Shown here: positions 4,510-27,026 of the stretch, piece by piece | Position numbering within the stretch: the stretch's first letter is position 1 | Layout of the letters: each line of letters begins with the position of its first letter | NCBI GenBank assembly: GCA_024641025.1 | Contig: JAHEDW010000006.1 | Location: 1-51,262, forward strand | DNA: 51,262 nt | Direction: 5' to 3' | Source of the DNA: Gallionella sp. | GTDB lineage: Bacteria > Pseudomonadota > Gammaproteobacteria > Burkholderiales > Gallionellaceae | The notes under the pieces: model-generated | Seen by the model: the letters and a program-made list of their open reading frames with translations, nothing else | The model's database searches: none | What the model was told of the DNA's origin: nothing | Translations under genes and position numbers: made by a program

Positions 4510-7368
4510 CTAGTCGGCATATGATTCTATGGGTGGACATGCGCAAATCAGGTGCTTGTCGCCATACACGTTGTCAACGCGTGCGACGCTCGGCCAGAAT
4601 TTATTTTCACGCACCCAGGGCAGCGGGAAAGCAGCTTGTTCGCGCGCGTAACTGTGTTTCCAGTCGCTATTCACCACAGCTTTGGCAGTATGTGGGGCAT
4701 TTCTTAAGACATTGTCCTTTTTGTCCGACTTACCTGAAATGATTTCGTCGATTTCACCGCGAATCGAGATCATGGCGTCGCAGAAACGATCCAGTTCAGC
4801 CTTGGACTCGCTCTCAGTAGGTTCGACCATCAGGGTATCCACCACCGGGAATGATGTGGTGGGAGCGTGGAAGCCGTAATCCATGAGTCGTTTTGCGATG
4901 TCAGCAACCTCGATGCCGGCATCACGCTTGAAATCGGAACAGGCAAGAATCATCTCATGTGCACATCTATTTTTTGAGCCGCTGTACAAAGTTGGGAAGT
5001 GATCCTTTAGCGATTCCTTGATGTAGTTGGCATTCAGAATCGCAATTCGTGTGGCTTCAGTGAGCCCAGCGCCACCCATCATTTTGATGTAGCCATAGGA
5101 AATCAGCAGTATTAGCGCACTACCGTAGGGTGCAGCGGATACGGCGTGGATTCCTTGCGTACCACCGGTCTTGACCACTGGGTGTTTTGGCAGGAATGGC
5201 GCGAGATGCGCTGCTACACCGATTGGTCCCATGCCGGGACCGCCACCACCATGTGGTATGGCAAAAGTCTTGTGCAGGTTCAGGTGGCATACGTCAGCAC
5301 CGATATTGCCGGGACTGGTCAGGCCGACTTGGGCATTCATATTTGCACCGTCCATATATACCTGACCGCCGTTCTCATGAACGATACGTGTGATGTCCTT
5401 GATACCCTCTTCATAGACGCCATGCGTACTTGGGTAAGTGACCATCAGGCAGCATAGGTCTTCGCTGTGCTGCTCAGCTTTTTCGCGTAGATCGTTGATG
5501 TCGATATTGCCCTGCTTGTCGCACTTCACAACCACGATCTTCATTCCGCACATTGCTGCGCTTGCAGGATTGGTGCCGTGCGCAGAGGCTGGGATCAATG
5601 CCACGTTACGTTGACCCTCGCCGCGCGAACGGTGATATGCCTGTATTACCAGCAAGCCTGCATATTCACCTTGTGCACCGCTGTTCGGTTGAAAACTCAT
5701 TTTGGCAAAGCCGGTGATCTCTGAAAGTGCGGCATCAAGACTGGCAATCATTTCCTGATAACCCTCAGCTTGTTCAAGCGGAACAAAAGGATGTAGGTTG
5801 GCGAATTCCGGCCAAGTGAGCGGAATCAGCTCAGAGGCTGCATTCAGTTTCATCGTGCAGGAACCAAGCGATATCATCGAGTGTGTCAGCGACAGGTCTT
5901 TGTTCTCCAGTCGCTTGATGTAGCGCATCATCTCTGATTCGGAGTGATATTTATTGAAAACTGCATGACCCAGGATGGGAGATACTCTAATCTTCAAGCG
6001 CATCGACTGGGAAAGAACTTGCGCTGAGTTGACGGTCGGAGTTGGTTTGTCAGCAGCCTGGGAGAAGATGCGCAGAATGGCATTAAGCGCGTCTGCATCG
6101 GTAGTTTGGTCCAGTGAAATCGTCAGCCCATCATCTGTATAGCGGAAATTTATTTGTGCCGCCTCGGCCAGGGCGTGAATCTTCACGTTGTCAGTATGGG
6201 TTAGTTTGACCGTATCGAAGAATGCTTCTTCGGTAACGGCATAACCGAGTTTGCTTAATTCGCCTGCCAGCGTTGCTGCGGAAAGATGTACTGTCTGCGC
6301 GATGCTGCGAAGACCATCTGCGCCGTGATAAACCGCATACATGCTGGCCATGATCGCCAATAGTGCTTGTGCAGTGCAAATGTTGGAAGTGGCCTTTTCA
6401 CGGCGGATATGCTGCTCGCGGGTTTGCAGTGCCATACGCAAGGCGCGGGCTCCATCGGCATCGATTGATACGCCTATGATGCGTCCTGGCATGGAGCGCC
6501 TATGCACGTTATGACAGGCGAAATATGCGGCATGAGGGCCTCCGTATCCCATAGGAACACCGAAGCGCTGGGTGGAGCCAACAACTACGTCTGCACCCCA
6601 TTCACCCGGTGGGGTGAGCAAAACCAGGCTGAGAATGTCTGCTGACACTGCGATGGTCATGCCGTGTGCCTTGGCACGGGCAACAAAGTCTGCATAGTCA
6701 TGTACTAGCCCATCAGCTGTCGGGTACTGCAACAGTGCCCCATAAAGAGTGTCATTCAATGTGACGCTCTTGAAATCGCCGATGACCAGTTTGATACCCA
6801 GTGGCATGGCACGAGTCTTCAACAGCTCGATAGTTTGCGGAAAGCATTCGTGCGAAACAAAAAAACTGTCCCTGCCCTGCTCCACCGCCTCACTTGAACG
6901 GAGGCTGTACAGCATGGTCATCGCTTCTGCTGCAGCGGTTGCTTCGTCCAGCAAGGATGCATTGGCGATCTCCATGCCGGTGAGATCCATCACCATGGTC
7001 TGGAAATTGAGCAAGGCTTCGAGGCGACCCTGTGCGATTTCGGCCTGATAGGGTGTATAAGCTGTGTACCAACCTGGATTCTCAAGAATATTACGCTGGA
7101 TCACCGATGGCAAAATGGTGTCGTAATAGCCCAAGCCGATATAACTCTTGAACAATTTGTTCTTTGACGCGATTCCTGACAGATGTTGATGGTAAGCATA
7201 TTCGGACATGCCTTCAGGAAGGCTCAATGGTTGCTTGAGGCGGATGGCTGACGGTATGGTTTGATCTATCAGCGCGTCAAGTGAGGGCGCATCGATCTTT
7301 TGCAGCATTTCCCGAACTTCAAGCGAATTTGGGCCGTTGTGCCGATTTACGAATTGGTCGTTCTTCAT
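4510..7368 (-). CDS. gcvP: glycine dehydrogenase (decarboxylating), P-protein
   Basis: The P-protein of the glycine cleavage system decarboxylates glycine through pyridoxal phosphate and passes the aminomethyl group to the lipoyl arm of GcvH. The 952-residue length is that of the fused single-chain form rather than the split GcvPA/GcvPB form. The PLP lysine is in [18 protein letters not shown], at residue 700 (K), followed by the glycine-rich loop typical of the family. The N-terminal half carries the related but non-catalytic fold, beginning near FVNRHNGP. It is the third gene of gcvT-gcvH-gcvP-dgkA and lies 94 bp after gcvH. Start ATG 7368 gives the family N-terminus. Confidence 0.97.
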
Positions 7369-7462
7369 GGTATTGGAAATAGAATTGTGAGCTAGGGAAT
7401 CGTAAATCGGAATAAAAGAAGGATTGTCCCGAATCAGCGATCACGAATCCCATGCCCTGGTT

Positions 7463-7858
7463 TTAATGGGATTCGCTGTCCACCAATGCCTGATAGGCAT
7501 TGGCATCCATCAACGCAGCGACATCGGCTGGATTGTCGGGTTTCATTTTGAATATCCATGAACCATACGGGTCTGTATTGATGGATTCCGGAGAACTGTC
7601 CATGTCACTGTTCGCTCCAGTAACTTGTCCGCTGACGGGTGCGTAGATGTCGGCTGCTGCTTTTACCGATTCGACGACCGCGCATTCTTCCTTGGCCTTG
7701 AGCTTGCGGCCAACTTTCGGGCTTTCGACAAAAACCATGTCTCCCAAAAGTTCCTGGGCATGTTGGGTAATGCCAACGGTGATAGTGCCATCGGTTTCAG
7801 TCTTGATCCATTCGTGTGATGCTGTGTACTTCAAGTCGCCGGGAATACTCATCTTCAT
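7463..7858 (-). CDS. gcvH: glycine cleavage system H-protein
   Basis: A 131-residue lipoyl carrier that shuttles the aminomethyl intermediate between GcvP, GcvT and the dihydrolipoamide dehydrogenase. The lipoylation site is Lys66 in VVESVKAAADIYAPVSG, and the N-terminal YTASHEW motif is typical. ATG 7858 gives MKMSIPGDL; a second in-frame ATG two codons on would give MSIPGDL, and either is possible. It lies 14 bp after gcvT, so it is in the riboswitch-controlled operon. Confidence 0.97.
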   Translation of the reverse strand: MKMSIPGDLKYTASHEWIKTETDGTITVGITQHAQELLGDMVFVESPKVGRKLKAKEECAVVESVKAAADIYAPVSGQVTGANSDMDSSPESINTDPYGSWIFKMKPDNPADVAALMDANAYQALVDSESH

Positions 7859-23347: not shown

Positions 23348-24124
23348 CTAAAAAATCTGATCGTCGCGGGCAAAAATATCGTTTTCCTGTGTGTCGCTCC
23401 CGGTTTCCTTTTCAGCCGGAAATATCTCTGAATAGCTGGCATAAAGGGAAGTAAACACGATCGGCAACAATATCAGCCAGCCAAGCATCATCGGAAGACT
23501 GGCAAGGAACGCCAACAGCATGAAAGTAATGCCATAAACCAACATGGCACCAATGTTGTTGAGGAAAGCACGCAGGCTGAGTTTCATGGCCACCAGCGGT
23601 GTCACGTTGTTGAAGAACACCAACAGAGGCGCATATTGCATTGCCATGACAAGCAGGCTGAACAGGATTAAGCCCAGCAAAATCGCCAGCCCGGCCCCGC
23701 TGGCAGCTTGCATGATGACTTCGGGTTCAACATCCGGCTGTCCGCTCATCAAAATGCTCACCAGTGCCGCTCCACCGACCAGCATCATTATGCCGAAAAT
23801 CAGGAACTGGCTGACCAACCCGATACCGCCCAGTGTCACCAGTTGGGTAGTATGTTGTTTAAAACCCCGGACCAGATGCATCAGTTCCAGATCCTCGCCT
23901 TTTCTCAAGTCTTGGCATCCAGCCATCAATCCAACCAATATCACTGGCATCAGTAGGCTAATGAGCGGCTCGCCTACTACCGGCACGCTGGAAAAGGCGA
24001 CTGCAGCGACCAGGCAGATCAGCAACAGTACGATCCATAGCAATGGGGCTTTCATGAACAATGCATACCCTTGCTTGATCCATTCCCAACCGTGACCAGC
24101 CGTTAAATGTTTAGCTTCTATCAT
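23348..24124 (-). CDS. BPSS1780-family polytopic membrane protein
   Basis: A 258-residue hydrophobic protein starting MIEAKHLTAGHGWEWIKQGYALFMKAPLLW, the recognisable N-terminus of the BPSS1780 family found mainly in betaproteobacteria. About five or six membrane helices are visible, and the tail is charged. Function is not known. GGAG lies 8-9 bases before ATG 24124. It is convergent with uvrD. A broken second copy of its first third lies just upstream (24262-24462). Confidence 0.8.
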   Translation of the reverse strand: MIEAKHLTAGHGWEWIKQGYALFMKAPLLWIVLLLICLVAAVAFSSVPVVGEPLISLLMPVILVGLMAGCQDLRKGEDLELMHLVRGFKQHTTQLVTLGGIGLVSQFLIFGIMMLVGGAALVSILMSGQPDVEPEVIMQAASGAGLAILLGLILFSLLVMAMQYAPLLVFFNNVTPLVAMKLSLRAFLNNIGAMLVYGITFMLLAFLASLPMMLGWLILLPIVFTSLYASYSEIFPAEKETGSDTQENDIFARDDQIF

Positions 24125-24160
24125 ACTTTATCTCCTATATAGCCAAATAGCTTGCGCTGC

Positions 24161-24258
24161 TGAGATGTGATTTTGCAAGACATTCTCAAAATGACGCGGA
24201 TTGTGTGCATTGATCAATTCTCCATCGTGCGGCAAATACATTTCATGCAGGCGCGACT
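24161..24258 (-). pseudogene. 3' fragment of a second thrB copy
   Basis: The minus-strand translation reads SRLHEMYLPHDGELIN followed by AHNPRHFENVLQNHIS, colinear with the C-terminal end of the intact ThrB at 25434-26375 (SRLHDMYFPRDGELVN...). DNA similarity is high, roughly four bases in five by eye over about 95 bp. The fragment has no start, and its reading frame is out of register with the BPSS1780-like piece to which it is joined. It ends a few codons later with unrelated residues, just before the intact BPSS1780-family gene. Confidence 0.8.
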
Positions 24259-24261
24259 ACC

Positions 24262-24462
24262 GGTATACAGCCCGGCTAAAAACACGGACGTCAGCAAGAT
24301 TATTAATGGCTTGCTTATGACGGATATGCTGGACCATGAGAATGTTGACATCAACAAGATCATCAGCAGGCTAATCCACAGTAGCGGTGCTTTCATGAAC
24401 AGCCCGTAACTGCTATTTATTCATACCCAACCGTTACCGGCACTTAATTGTCTTGGTTCAAT
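24262..24462 (-). pseudogene. 5' fragment of a second BPSS1780-family gene
   Basis: On the minus strand the translation runs IEPRQLSAGNGWV, an in-frame TGA at 24423-24421, then INSSYGLFMKAPLLWISLL and on to VFLAGLYTG. It aligns without gaps to residues 2 to about 70 of the intact protein at 23348-24124 (IEAKHLTAGHGWEW...). The start codon is lost (CAA in place of ATG), and the stop replaces the codon for Trp14. The rest of the gene is missing and the sequence passes directly into the thrB fragment. Confidence 0.8.
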
Positions 24463-24536
24463 TTGATCTTAAATACATTAATTCGGATATATATTTCCAT
24501 TGTAATGTGATTTAGTAATATCTGCCCAAAATAGCG

Positions 24537-24552
24537 CTGTACATCTGTACAG
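24537..24552 (+). promoter_or_regulatory. LexA-like box (CTGT-N8-ACAG)
   Basis: CTGTACATCTGTACAG matches the CTGT-N8-ACAG consensus used by LexA in beta- and gammaproteobacteria, inside a slightly longer palindrome (24536-24553). It is 150 bp before the thrH start. Nothing else recognisable was found between the pseudogene and thrH. Confidence 0.4.
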
Positions 24553-24701
24553 CAAAACTGGCAGTCGCTCGGCAATTTCTATTCGTGTCAGCCTGTGGCA
24601 TCAAGAAATGCACAGAAACAGATTTGCGCTTGGTCGGAATTATATCGAGAGATGGTAGAATTCATGTTTCGTGGCGAATCCTCATATTAAGGAGTCTTTC
24701 C

Positions 24702-25310
24702 GTGCAGCTTGTTTGTCTTGACCTTGAAGGTGTCCTCGTTCCGGAGATATGGATCGAATTCTCGAAACGCGCCGGCATTCCAGAATTGCGCCGTACTACA
24801 CGCGATGAGCCAGACTATGACAAACTGATGAAATACCGGTTGGGTATTCTGGCGCAGCACAAACTTGGCCTGCCAGATATACAGAAGGTCATTTCCGATA
24901 TGGGGCCAATGGAAGGTGCCAAAGAATTCCTCGATGATCTGCGCAAGCGCTTTCAGGTCATCATCCTTTCAGATACATTCTATGAATTCGCTCTTCCGCT
25001 GATGCTGCAATTGGGCATGCCGACGTTGTTCTGCCACAAGCTGGAAGCGGATGCCAACGGTACGCTGGTCAATTACCACTTGCGCATGCCGAACCAGAAG
25101 CGTGAAGCGGTGAAACGATTTCGCGAGATCAATTTCAAAACCATTGCTGCTGGCGACTCATACAACGATACGGCAATGCTTGGCGAAGCGCATGCAGGCA
25201 TTCTGTTTCGCCCGCCGGAAAACGTGACACGGGAGTTTCCGCAATATCCTGTCACCATGAACTATGCGGAACTTGATGAGGAAATTCGCAAAGCCAGCTT
25301 GAGAATCTGA
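24702..25310 (+). CDS. thrH: ThrH: phosphoserine phosphatase / phosphoserine:homoserine phosphotransferase
   Basis: ThrH is a HAD-superfamily enzyme that dephosphorylates phosphoserine and can move the phosphate to homoserine. The 202-residue protein begins with GTG and reads QLVCLDLEGVLVPEIWIEFS, where DLEG is HAD motif I with an E at the position that is D in most HAD phosphatases, as is typical of ThrH. The motif II serine is in ILSDTFYEF, and the motif III/IV region is AAGDSYNDTAML. GTG 24702 is preferred because AAGGAG lies 7 bases upstream and the length matches the family (about 205). An upstream ATG at 24585 would add 39 unlike residues. It sits beside the convergent homoserine kinase gene, tying it to threonine synthesis. 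Confidence 0.93.
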   Translation: MQLVCLDLEGVLVPEIWIEFSKRAGIPELRRTTRDEPDYDKLMKYRLGILAQHKLGLPDIQKVISDMGPMEGAKEFLDDLRKRFQVIILSDTFYEFALPLMLQLGMPTLFCHKLEADANGTLVNYHLRMPNQKREAVKRFREINFKTIAAGDSYNDTAMLGEAHAGILFRPPENVTREFPQYPVTMNYAELDEEIRKASLRI

Positions 25311-25433
25311 CGCGATAAACATCAGGCCAGTATTAAACATTCAAACCTACGAACATCTGATTCGCGTGTTCCTGGTTTGCCCCACTTTGTCGCTATAGGG
25401 CATTTTCTGGGGATCAGTAAATGTGGATTCGGT

Positions 25434-26375
25434 TCATAACCAGACGGGCTGTTTCGTCCAGATATGGTTTTGCAGAATGCGCTTGAAATGCGCCGGATTA
25501 CGCGGATTGACCAATTCTCCATCGCGCGGAAAATACATATCATGCAGGCGTGACAACCAGAAGCGAAGCGCGGCAAGGCGCAGCATCAGCGGCCATGCAT
25601 CCCGTTCCGTATTCTGCAGCGGACGCACTTGATGATAGGCGCGCAGCAAGGTTTGCGCTCGCGGAATATCCAGCTTGCCGCTTGTATCCATGCACCAGTC
25701 GTTTACGGTGATTGCAACGTCATACAACAATACATCAGTGCAGGCAAAATAAAAATCGATCAAACCACCAATGCGGTCCTTTTCAATCAATACATTGTCA
25801 CGGAATAGGTCTGCATGAATCACCCCTTGTGGCATTGAAACATCAAATTGCCCGTTGTGTAGAGCAATTTCTCGTTCCAGCATTTCCGCTTGTGAAGCAT
25901 CCAAAAATGGTCGTACCAGTGGCGCAGTTGTTGAGCGCCATGCTGTACCACGCGGGTTAGGCATGATTTGTGAAAAACTTTGACCAGCTATGTGCATCTG
26001 ACCCAACATCGCACCGATGGAAGCACACTGAGCCAGACTGGGAGCGTTGACAGACTTGCCGCTCAAGCGACTGACGATGCATGCGGGCTTGCCTTTGAGG
26101 GAGCCAAGAAACTGATTGTGGCGGTTTGCCATCGGGTTCGGGCAGGGAATGCCATGGCGGGCAAGATGTGCCATCAGGTTCAGGTAGAACGGTAACTCAT
26201 CTGCGGTTAGTTTCTCAAAAAGAGTGAGCACAAAACGCCCGTTGCTGGTCGTTACGAAATAATTTGTATTCTCGATGCCGGAAACTATGCCTTGCAACTC
26301 CGACAACTGGCCGAGCGAATAGTTAGATAGCCATGCAGTAAGTTCCGCCTCGGAAACCGTAGTGAAGACCGCCAT
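25434..26375 (-). CDS. thrB: homoserine kinase (ThrB, aminoglycoside-phosphotransferase fold)
   Basis: It phosphorylates homoserine on the way to threonine. This is the APH-fold type of many proteobacteria, not the GHMP type of E. coli. The 313-residue protein begins MAVFTTVSEAELTAWLSNYSLG. HADLFRDNV is the catalytic loop (H-x-D...N) and GLIDFYFACTD carries the metal-binding Asp. ATG 26375 lies 10 bp after the DUF2782 gene, which gives the usual N-terminus; the longer frame would overlap that gene. A decayed copy of its last 32 codons is present at 24161-24258. Confidence 0.95.
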   Translation of the reverse strand: MAVFTTVSEAELTAWLSNYSLGQLSELQGIVSGIENTNYFVTTSNGRFVLTLFEKLTADELPFYLNLMAHLARHGIPCPNPMANRHNQFLGSLKGKPACIVSRLSGKSVNAPSLAQCASIGAMLGQMHIAGQSFSQIMPNPRGTAWRSTTAPLVRPFLDASQAEMLEREIALHNGQFDVSMPQGVIHADLFRDNVLIEKDRIGGLIDFYFACTDVLLYDVAITVNDWCMDTSGKLDIPRAQTLLRAYHQVRPLQNTERDAWPLMLRLAALRFWLSRLHDMYFPRDGELVNPRNPAHFKRILQNHIWTKQPVWL

Positions 26376-26761: not shown

Positions 26762-27026
26762 TTATCCGATGACAGTGAACTCTGTGCGAATAGGTGCATG
26801 AAGAGCTTCAACCCGTGCTCCAGCAGCGAGGTGTTTTATCACATGGCGTACGTCGGGGGCGATTAGATGTTCGGCGAAATATTCACGCATAAAATTTATG
26901 GCATCCCAATGGTCCTGTGTGAGTTCGATGCTTTCCTGTGATGCCAAAATACTTGGCGATTTCCTCACTATGTCTTGAGGATTGATCAGGTAGCCTTCCT
27001 CGTCAGTTTAGGGTACTTGCACATCC
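26762..27026 (-). pseudogene. broken TusE/DsrC-family gene
   Basis: Read on the minus strand from ATG 27026: MDVQVP, TAA, then TDEEGYLINPQD, a short out-of-frame patch, and LASQESIELTQDHWD with AINFMREYFAEHLIAPDVRHVIKHLA after it. The family signature (DEEGYL, ELT-x-x-HW, NF-x-REY, IAP-x-VR) is clear. The defects are a premature TAA, a one-base deletion after the PQD codons, a one-base insertion (four T instead of three) that restores frame, and loss of the C-terminal LFPYG...KQAC region with the catalytic cysteines. A short trace (KLFMHLF) of that region survives in another frame. TusE/DsrC proteins handle sulfur in tRNA thiolation or sulfur oxidation; this copy cannot work. Confidence 0.75.

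Follow-up and report, generated by a model that had tools for sequence, protein, structure and literature searches.

A decayed direct repeat of a thrB-BPSS1780 gene junction beside thrH in Gallionella sp.

Features of the locus

The window (the whole analyzed stretch of 51,262 nt from Gallionella sp.) contains intact genes for a BPSS1780-family membrane protein, ThrH and the homoserine kinase ThrB, with gene fragments between the first two. Features are given by window position and strand. "Outside" designates the type found at loci L130 and L134 of named relatives outside the genus set.

23348-24124, minus strand: BPSS2, intact BPSS1780-family membrane protein gene (NF041043, 197 bits, cut-off 90)
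24140-24261, minus strand: T2, relic of a thrB 3' end, joined to BPSS2 (junction model, 279 bits)
24251-24261, minus strand: chimeric joint on a microhomology of about 11 nt (commonest forms: thrB GGCTGTCGCGC, BPSS GGCTGCCGCGC)
24262-24462, minus strand: B1, BPSS1780-like gene front, dead (ATT in the start position; TGA at 24423-24421)
24497-24608, minus strand: T3, degraded thrB tail upstream of B1 (counterparts in G071, L130, L131 and L134)
24499-24504, minus strand: TACAAT, a -10-like hexamer inside ATTACAATG in T3, possible BPSS promoter
24535-24554, no strand: palindrome GCTGTACA-TC-TGTACAGC (CTGT-N8-ACAG), upstream of thrH
24648-24701, plus strand: thrH upstream region, conserved among thrH loci
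24702-25310, plus strand: thrH, intact, phosphoserine phosphatase/homoserine phosphotransferase family (NF010109, 327 bits; TIGR02137, 287 bits)
25434-25543, minus strand: thrB end of outside (L130/L134) type (change of type between 25572 and 25543)
25434-26375, minus strand: thrB, intact homoserine kinase of the APH family (TIGR00938, 388 bits, cut-off 256)

ThrH was matched over its full length to PDB 1rku (E 2.4e-78) and scored above the curated cut-off over its full length (TIGR02137/NF010109). Both thrB (dN 0.13, dS 1.48 against G083) and thrH (dN 0.04, dS 0.76 against L130) look maintained, because pairwise dN is well below dS. The cell probably has two routes to phosphorylate homoserine, judging by family membership and the cited work on ThrH. 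In the passage of PMC5764234 that refers to Singh 2004, ThrH is a phosphoserine:homoserine phosphotransferase.

A short ORF on the minus strand of the window (26762-26968) was matched by the DsrC profile PF04358 at positions 27-70 of 107 only (E 1.6e-11) and is possibly another truncated gene.

Similarity and decay of B1 and T2

In the first-pass annotation, two dead pieces derived from a BPSS1780-type gene and from thrB had been placed back to back on the minus strand, and both origins were confirmed. The minus strand of 24462-24300 gave a local score of 47 against the BPSS gene (maximum of 1000 dinucleotide shuffles, 17), and that of 24270-24150 a score of 53 against thrB (maximum of 1000 dinucleotide shuffles, 16); neither score was reached by any of the 1000 shuffles. 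The alignments proposed in the annotation were thus far above shuffles of the same composition, and crosswise controls, in which each piece was aligned with the other gene, stayed at shuffle level with scores of 12 and 11.

B1 is homologous to approximately the first 70 codons of the adjoining BPSS1780-family gene, and T2 to approximately the last 40 codons of thrB. In protein searches, B1 was aligned with BPSS residues 2-75 at 50% with one TGA, and T2 with thrB residues 297-338 at 57% with one TAG (residue numbers count from the TTG that opens the long ORF). At the nucleotide level, T2 and the present thrB (25460-25558) are identical at 76 of 99 positions (77%). The extent originally assigned to B1 (BPSS residues 2-70) was revised: its similarity runs to BPSS codon 67-75 or so, where it abuts T2. 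The thrB piece had been drawn too short at 32 residues: T2 reaches 24140, about 40 codons, and ends in a junction with the intact BPSS gene as in relatives (tail, short gap, ATG).

The reported disablements were recovered as well. B1 has ATT in place of a start codon and TGA as codon 14 (24423-24421), and the translations place the B1 and T2 parts in different reading frames. B1 is AT-rich and decayed (44.0% GC versus 50.7% for the window). Its pN to six BPSS fronts was 0.27-0.38, compared with 0.057 between the BPSS2 front and that of G071 (pairwise values). The remnant combines significant similarity to functional genes with a lost start, an in-frame stop and truncation, by which pseudogenes are recognized. 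The stretch 24140-24462 is a recombination scar and no gene. It has no role today as a protein and would at most be an untranslated leader for BPSS2. Nothing in its function is surprising; it is a well-preserved evolutionary scar of an ordinary kind.

The chimeric joint

At the joint, the FWLSRL codons of thrB and BPSS codon ~70 share a microhomology. With the joint position set by alignment ends, which brings a mild bias, on average 7.9 of 11 positions matched in 22 genomes, against a background of 2.8 (sd 1.1). This quality was equalled by 7 of 35,088 position pairs. The count was 10 of 11 in three genomes and 6 of 11 in G083, the nearest relative with thrB. Conservation of the fused fragments in relatives was not observed: no match across the chimeric B1/T2 joint was obtained in the 75 other genus genomes.

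A third thrB tail and the 340-nt repeat

The junction of thrB tail and BPSS front was modelled on 14 of the 29 congeneric thrB loci (the 15 on the minus strand were left out). With confidence, this junction model matched the window at three places: at the remnant with T3 included (24584-24269, 85 bits, E 2.2e-26), where T2 meets BPSS2 (24261-23853, 279 bits) and at the end of the present thrB (25736-25421, 265 bits). T3 and the usual character of the junction between T2 and the intact BPSS gene had both been overlooked in the first pass. T3 alone reached 2.5 bits only (E 0.0015). When it was aligned with five thrB tails, its score was reached by 0 of 300 shuffles, and the same held for its counterparts in G071, L130, L131 and L134; the L130 counterpart is still readable in frame as a thrB end. 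T3 and G071 are identical at 115 of 127 aligned nt (90.6%) over 24463-24601.

A repeat finder placed the three thrB tails in one family, with a T2-T3 spacing of 340 nt. The locus thus comprises three thrB tails and two BPSS fronts, and the remnant, T3 counted in, is a direct repeat of about 340 nt of the thrB-tail/BPSS-front junction. The view that the remnant reflects a duplication, with thrH between the copies, is borne out.

Gene order in relatives

The genus set comprised 76 genomes, the own genome included, many of them incomplete. Matches were found in 70 genomes for BPSS1780-type genes, in 66 for thrB and in 8 for thrH; five thrH matches were clear at 86-100% (own genome, G016, G095, G020 and G012), and three were marginal (E 1e-4 to 9e-4). 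In the congeners that were read further, the order is uvrD, BPSS and thrB on the opposite strand, a DUF2782 gene, a LOG-family gene and polA. Of the 65 other genomes with thrB, 61 had BPSS directly downstream of it, on the same strand and within about 65 nt; the distance was larger in G083 (203 nt), in G090 and G023 (about 250-260 nt) and in G068 (4.3 kb). All 29 loci read in detail had BPSS after thrB, with 4-60 nt between aligned ends. An intact tandem thrB-BPSS pair was seen in none of the 75 other genus genomes, many of which are incomplete. Two BPSS matches per genome were recorded in the own genome, in G012 (two contigs, each with uvrD), in G094 and in G097; those of G094 and G097 were one gene, split.

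Within the genus set, thrH was located between uvrD and BPSS in G016, G095 and G012 contig C34, and behind BPSS in the same orientation in G020, where uvrD is on a separate contig. No thrB match was found in G016, G020 and G095, all three of which have thrH. Putative thrB scraps before BPSS were noted in translations of these three genomes read by eye; only that of G016, with the first and last thrB codons in one frame, was clear.

Among named relatives outside the genus set, the neighborhood of 22 of 80 thrH loci was examined. In L132 and L133, thrH is between uvrD and BPSS, and thrB is retained. In L130 and L134, thrH is flanked by BPSS and thrB as in the window, an order which is thus not private to the window's duplication, and L131 has BPSS-thrH without thrB at the locus. 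The BPSS-thrH spacer is common to the window, L130, L131 and L134; it was also found in G071, beside an intact BPSS gene near the end of a contig, which stops 130 nt upstream of the BPSS start. G071 (genome completeness 64%) gave no thrB or thrH match.

Several further features of these loci were recorded. In G083, an insertion of about 200 nt (L110, approximately 6775-6977) separates thrB and BPSS, a second interruption of that junction; its ends show apparent inverted repeats by eye (CTCTAAAAAT...ATTTTTAGAG), and it resembles a small non-coding mobile element. L130 carries a tandem of two BPSS1780-type genes (6214-7794) with 38% and 61% identity to that of the window, resembling the two classes (34-42% and 56-78%) that follow thrB in the genus set. 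In G021, the last ~47 uvrD codons recur about 3 kb downstream of uvrD (L102, 6866-7006), a further partial duplication at the locus. The two contigs of G012, C10 (L097) and C34 (L096), hold two uvrD-BPSS-polA versions in one assembly, one with thrB and the other with thrH and a glyoxalase-like ORF (by eye); G012 is probably a mixed bin of two organisms. G082 (L269, 93% complete) gave no match for thrB, BPSS1780 or thrH. It was discarded as an informative thrB-less relative, as its uvrD is followed by unrelated genes and the junction model found no match.

Native and outside ancestry

In the rpoB tree, G071 was nearest to the window (100), followed by G083 (support 80); four of 56 rows (G067, G009, G064 and G017) were on a very long branch, probably as wrong-frame picks, and were not involved in the window/G071 pair. 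The BPSS2 tree (split with G071, 99.4/100) and the thrB tree (split with G083, 94.4/94) agreed with rpoB. Based on these trees, BPSS2 was placed as vertically inherited and thrB as native over most of its length.

The thrH tree grouped the window with L130 (96/98). The two thrH genes have 86.3% nucleotide identity, compared with 68-78% for five flanking genes, and pS between window and L130 was 0.48 for thrH versus 0.66-0.75 for five neighbors. The window thrH was closer to neighbor level in pS against G016 and G095. The synonymous comparison lends weak support, because thrH was lower in pS than its neighbors in three other pairs too (L130/G016, L132/L133 and G012C34/L132).

The intact thrB has the look of a mosaic, with an outside type over the final ~35 codons. 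For this comparison, 43 congeneric thrB copies from the 65 other genomes with a match were used. The end had 8 outside, 0 genus and 1 other states at 9 nucleotide sites, and the upstream part 8 outside, 35 genus and 1 other at 44 sites (Fisher without "other", 2e-5), counts for which the odd tail had been spotted by eye beforehand, the split point was the T2 start and the sites are not independent. Outside-type amino acids were found at 5 of 5 sites in the end versus 1 of 18 in the body (5e-4). The best of the 43 congeners had the outside-type state at 3 of 7 sites of the end. The outside-type end is marked by the motif NPRNP..HFKRILQNHI. The change of type (25572-25543) is over the FWLSRL codons and coincides with the T2 start. 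In the AU test, an outside origin of the thrB body was excluded (p 0.017); a native origin of the short thrB end stayed compatible (p 0.11), and T2 was unplaced. That thrH and the thrB end came from outside is supported but not proven.

The present thrB end (T1) was nearest to L134 and L130 (76%), and T2 to G024 (76.5%). At the 9 sites that separate outside and genus types, T2 had 6 genus and 2 outside states and 1 that was neither; with the genus state at 6 of 9, T2 is unlikely to have been copied from the present thrB end once thrH was in place. The pN of B1 was 0.27-0.29 to the window's own clade versus 0.38 to L130, and as B1 is closer to this clade it is probably not from an L130-like donor. 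An L130-like B1 was not supported by minority states either, since B1 shares 10 of 50 of those of L130; the share was 33-38% in G083, the window, G071 and G070 and 21-25% in G022, G012C10, G064, L132 and G024. Neither was a recent duplication of B1 after the window/G071 split supported: the place of B1 in the tree with G083 (39/63) is unsupported, and B1 has the minority state shared by window and G071 at 10 of 25 sites (0.27-0.42 in the highest 12 rows listed). Similarity to G071 falls at the BPSS start, from 90.6% in T3 to 58% in B1. In BPSS and uvrD, 57-70% of synonymous sites differ between window and G071.

Possible promoter in T3

ATTACAATG, which contains the -10-like hexamer, was present in 5 of 5 T3 copies and in 0 of 48 thrB tails. 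In a promoter scan, the single match of the region was located in T3, and this one site was fewer than the 4.1 obtained on average in shuffles. It is conceivable, if doubtful, that the BPSS1780 gene, separated by thrH from its operon, is now driven by a promoter derived from T3. Such a role would explain the conservation of T3 with G071, as would a late exchange with the lineage of G071. The dead B1/T2 chimera would then be an untranslated leader of about 340 nt for BPSS2 in the window. The palindrome at 24535-24554, which has one mismatch in G071, presumably resembles a LexA-type box.

Proposed history and alternatives

The locus probably arose by a microhomology-mediated duplication and the horizontal arrival of thrH, together with an outside thrB end, via homologous recombination. 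A second gene for a homoserine-phosphorylating enzyme (thrH) apparently came from a relative. In the window's lineage, the usual arrangement of thrB end, short gap and BPSS start would have been broken at the FWLSRL codons of thrB, and a joint with BPSS codon ~70 on the ~11-nt microhomology would have placed a further copy of the ~340-nt segment, tail plus front, upstream of the first. There, thrH and its upstream region would have entered, flanked by outside-type thrB tails (T3 and the present thrB end), by homologous recombination with a relative already of BPSS-thrH-thrB order. The present thrB would consist of the native body and a replaced end, and T2, before the intact BPSS gene, would be the original end. 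B1, of no use as a protein, would have decayed. Duplication and thrH arrival may have been separate, or may have happened together in a single event whose one end was homologous and whose other end was microhomologous. This history alone does not account for the 90.6% identity between T3 and its counterpart in G071.

As B1 resembles the own clade and not L130, two steps or a close-kin donor are favored. A two-step course, to which we give somewhat less than an even chance, would comprise a native tandem duplication of ~340 nt, after which donor DNA carrying thrH and T3 replaced the thrB end of the upstream copy, the left crossover lying close to where BPSS starts. B1 would then resemble the window's clade and T3 and the thrB end the outside type, as observed, and the drop in similarity to G071 at the BPSS start (90.6% in T3, 58% in B1) would fit. 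The change of type at the T2 start would have to be chance, though the conserved FWLSRL codons make crossovers easy. The first-pass annotation had instead deduced that the entire pair was once duplicated in tandem and then suffered an internal deletion. In a complete thrB-BPSS-thrB-BPSS array, a deletion fusing the first BPSS front to the second thrB tail, with insertion of thrH between, would yield the same fusion and leave T2 as a genuine thrB tail joined to BPSS2. This course is unlikely: it takes an extra step, an intact array was seen in 0 of the 75 other, often incomplete genus genomes, and the outside-type thrB end and the order shared with L130 and L134 are left unaccounted for. A full tandem pair with deletion is unnecessary, because the microhomology gives the fusion in one step from a segment of ~340 nt.

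Artifact and transposition were also weighed. The genome is in 132 contigs and native and outside types alternate, as would be expected if two species of the metagenome had been joined in assembly. Such a chimera is nevertheless very improbable, as it would have to make two joints within a single contig, of which one rests on no more than a short match; moreover, B1 is AT-rich and decayed, and the separate genome G071 has T3 before its BPSS gene. The repeats that flank thrH might recall the scar of a transposon insertion or excision, but they are thrB tails, and we consider this origin hardly credible. A search for terminal inverted repeats returned only two inverted pairs (14 nt, at a minimum length of 14), neither of which flanks the segment, and no ORF of more than 84 aa other than thrH was present in 24140-25434.

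Comparison with known systems

Among the literature matches listed, no paper concerned this locus. Under the favored history of duplication and horizontal thrH arrival, the locus is a readable seam in which both joints, the displaced thrB end and the duplicated junction are visible together. In homology-facilitated illegitimate recombination (HFIR), as outlined in the part of PMC3240628 consulted, homology is used at one end and an illegitimate joint is made at the other. The locus would likewise have a homologous end in thrB, where the change of type is significant by site counts and not by the AU test, and it shows, at its other end, an illegitimate joint at a microhomology between unrelated genes, although the latter amounts to only 6 of 11 in G083. 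It differs from HFIR so described in that the course is reconstructed from a relic, B1 looks native and a two-step history is equally likely. Tandem duplication at microhomologies followed by pseudogene decay is similar in its unit of ~340 nt bounded by a shared short sequence; here, however, the upstream unit also has an outside-type thrB tail, with thrH beside it.

The locus further adds a case in which the genes of ThrB and of ThrH, its unrelated substitute, are brought together at a single chromosomal site. It resembles the non-orthologous displacement of ThrB by ThrH in that G016, G020 and G095 have thrH and gave no thrB match, but the window retains both genes, with pairwise dN well below dS. 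Three other thrH genomes of the genus set show no thrB. The steps of such a displacement could be put in order with sister strains.
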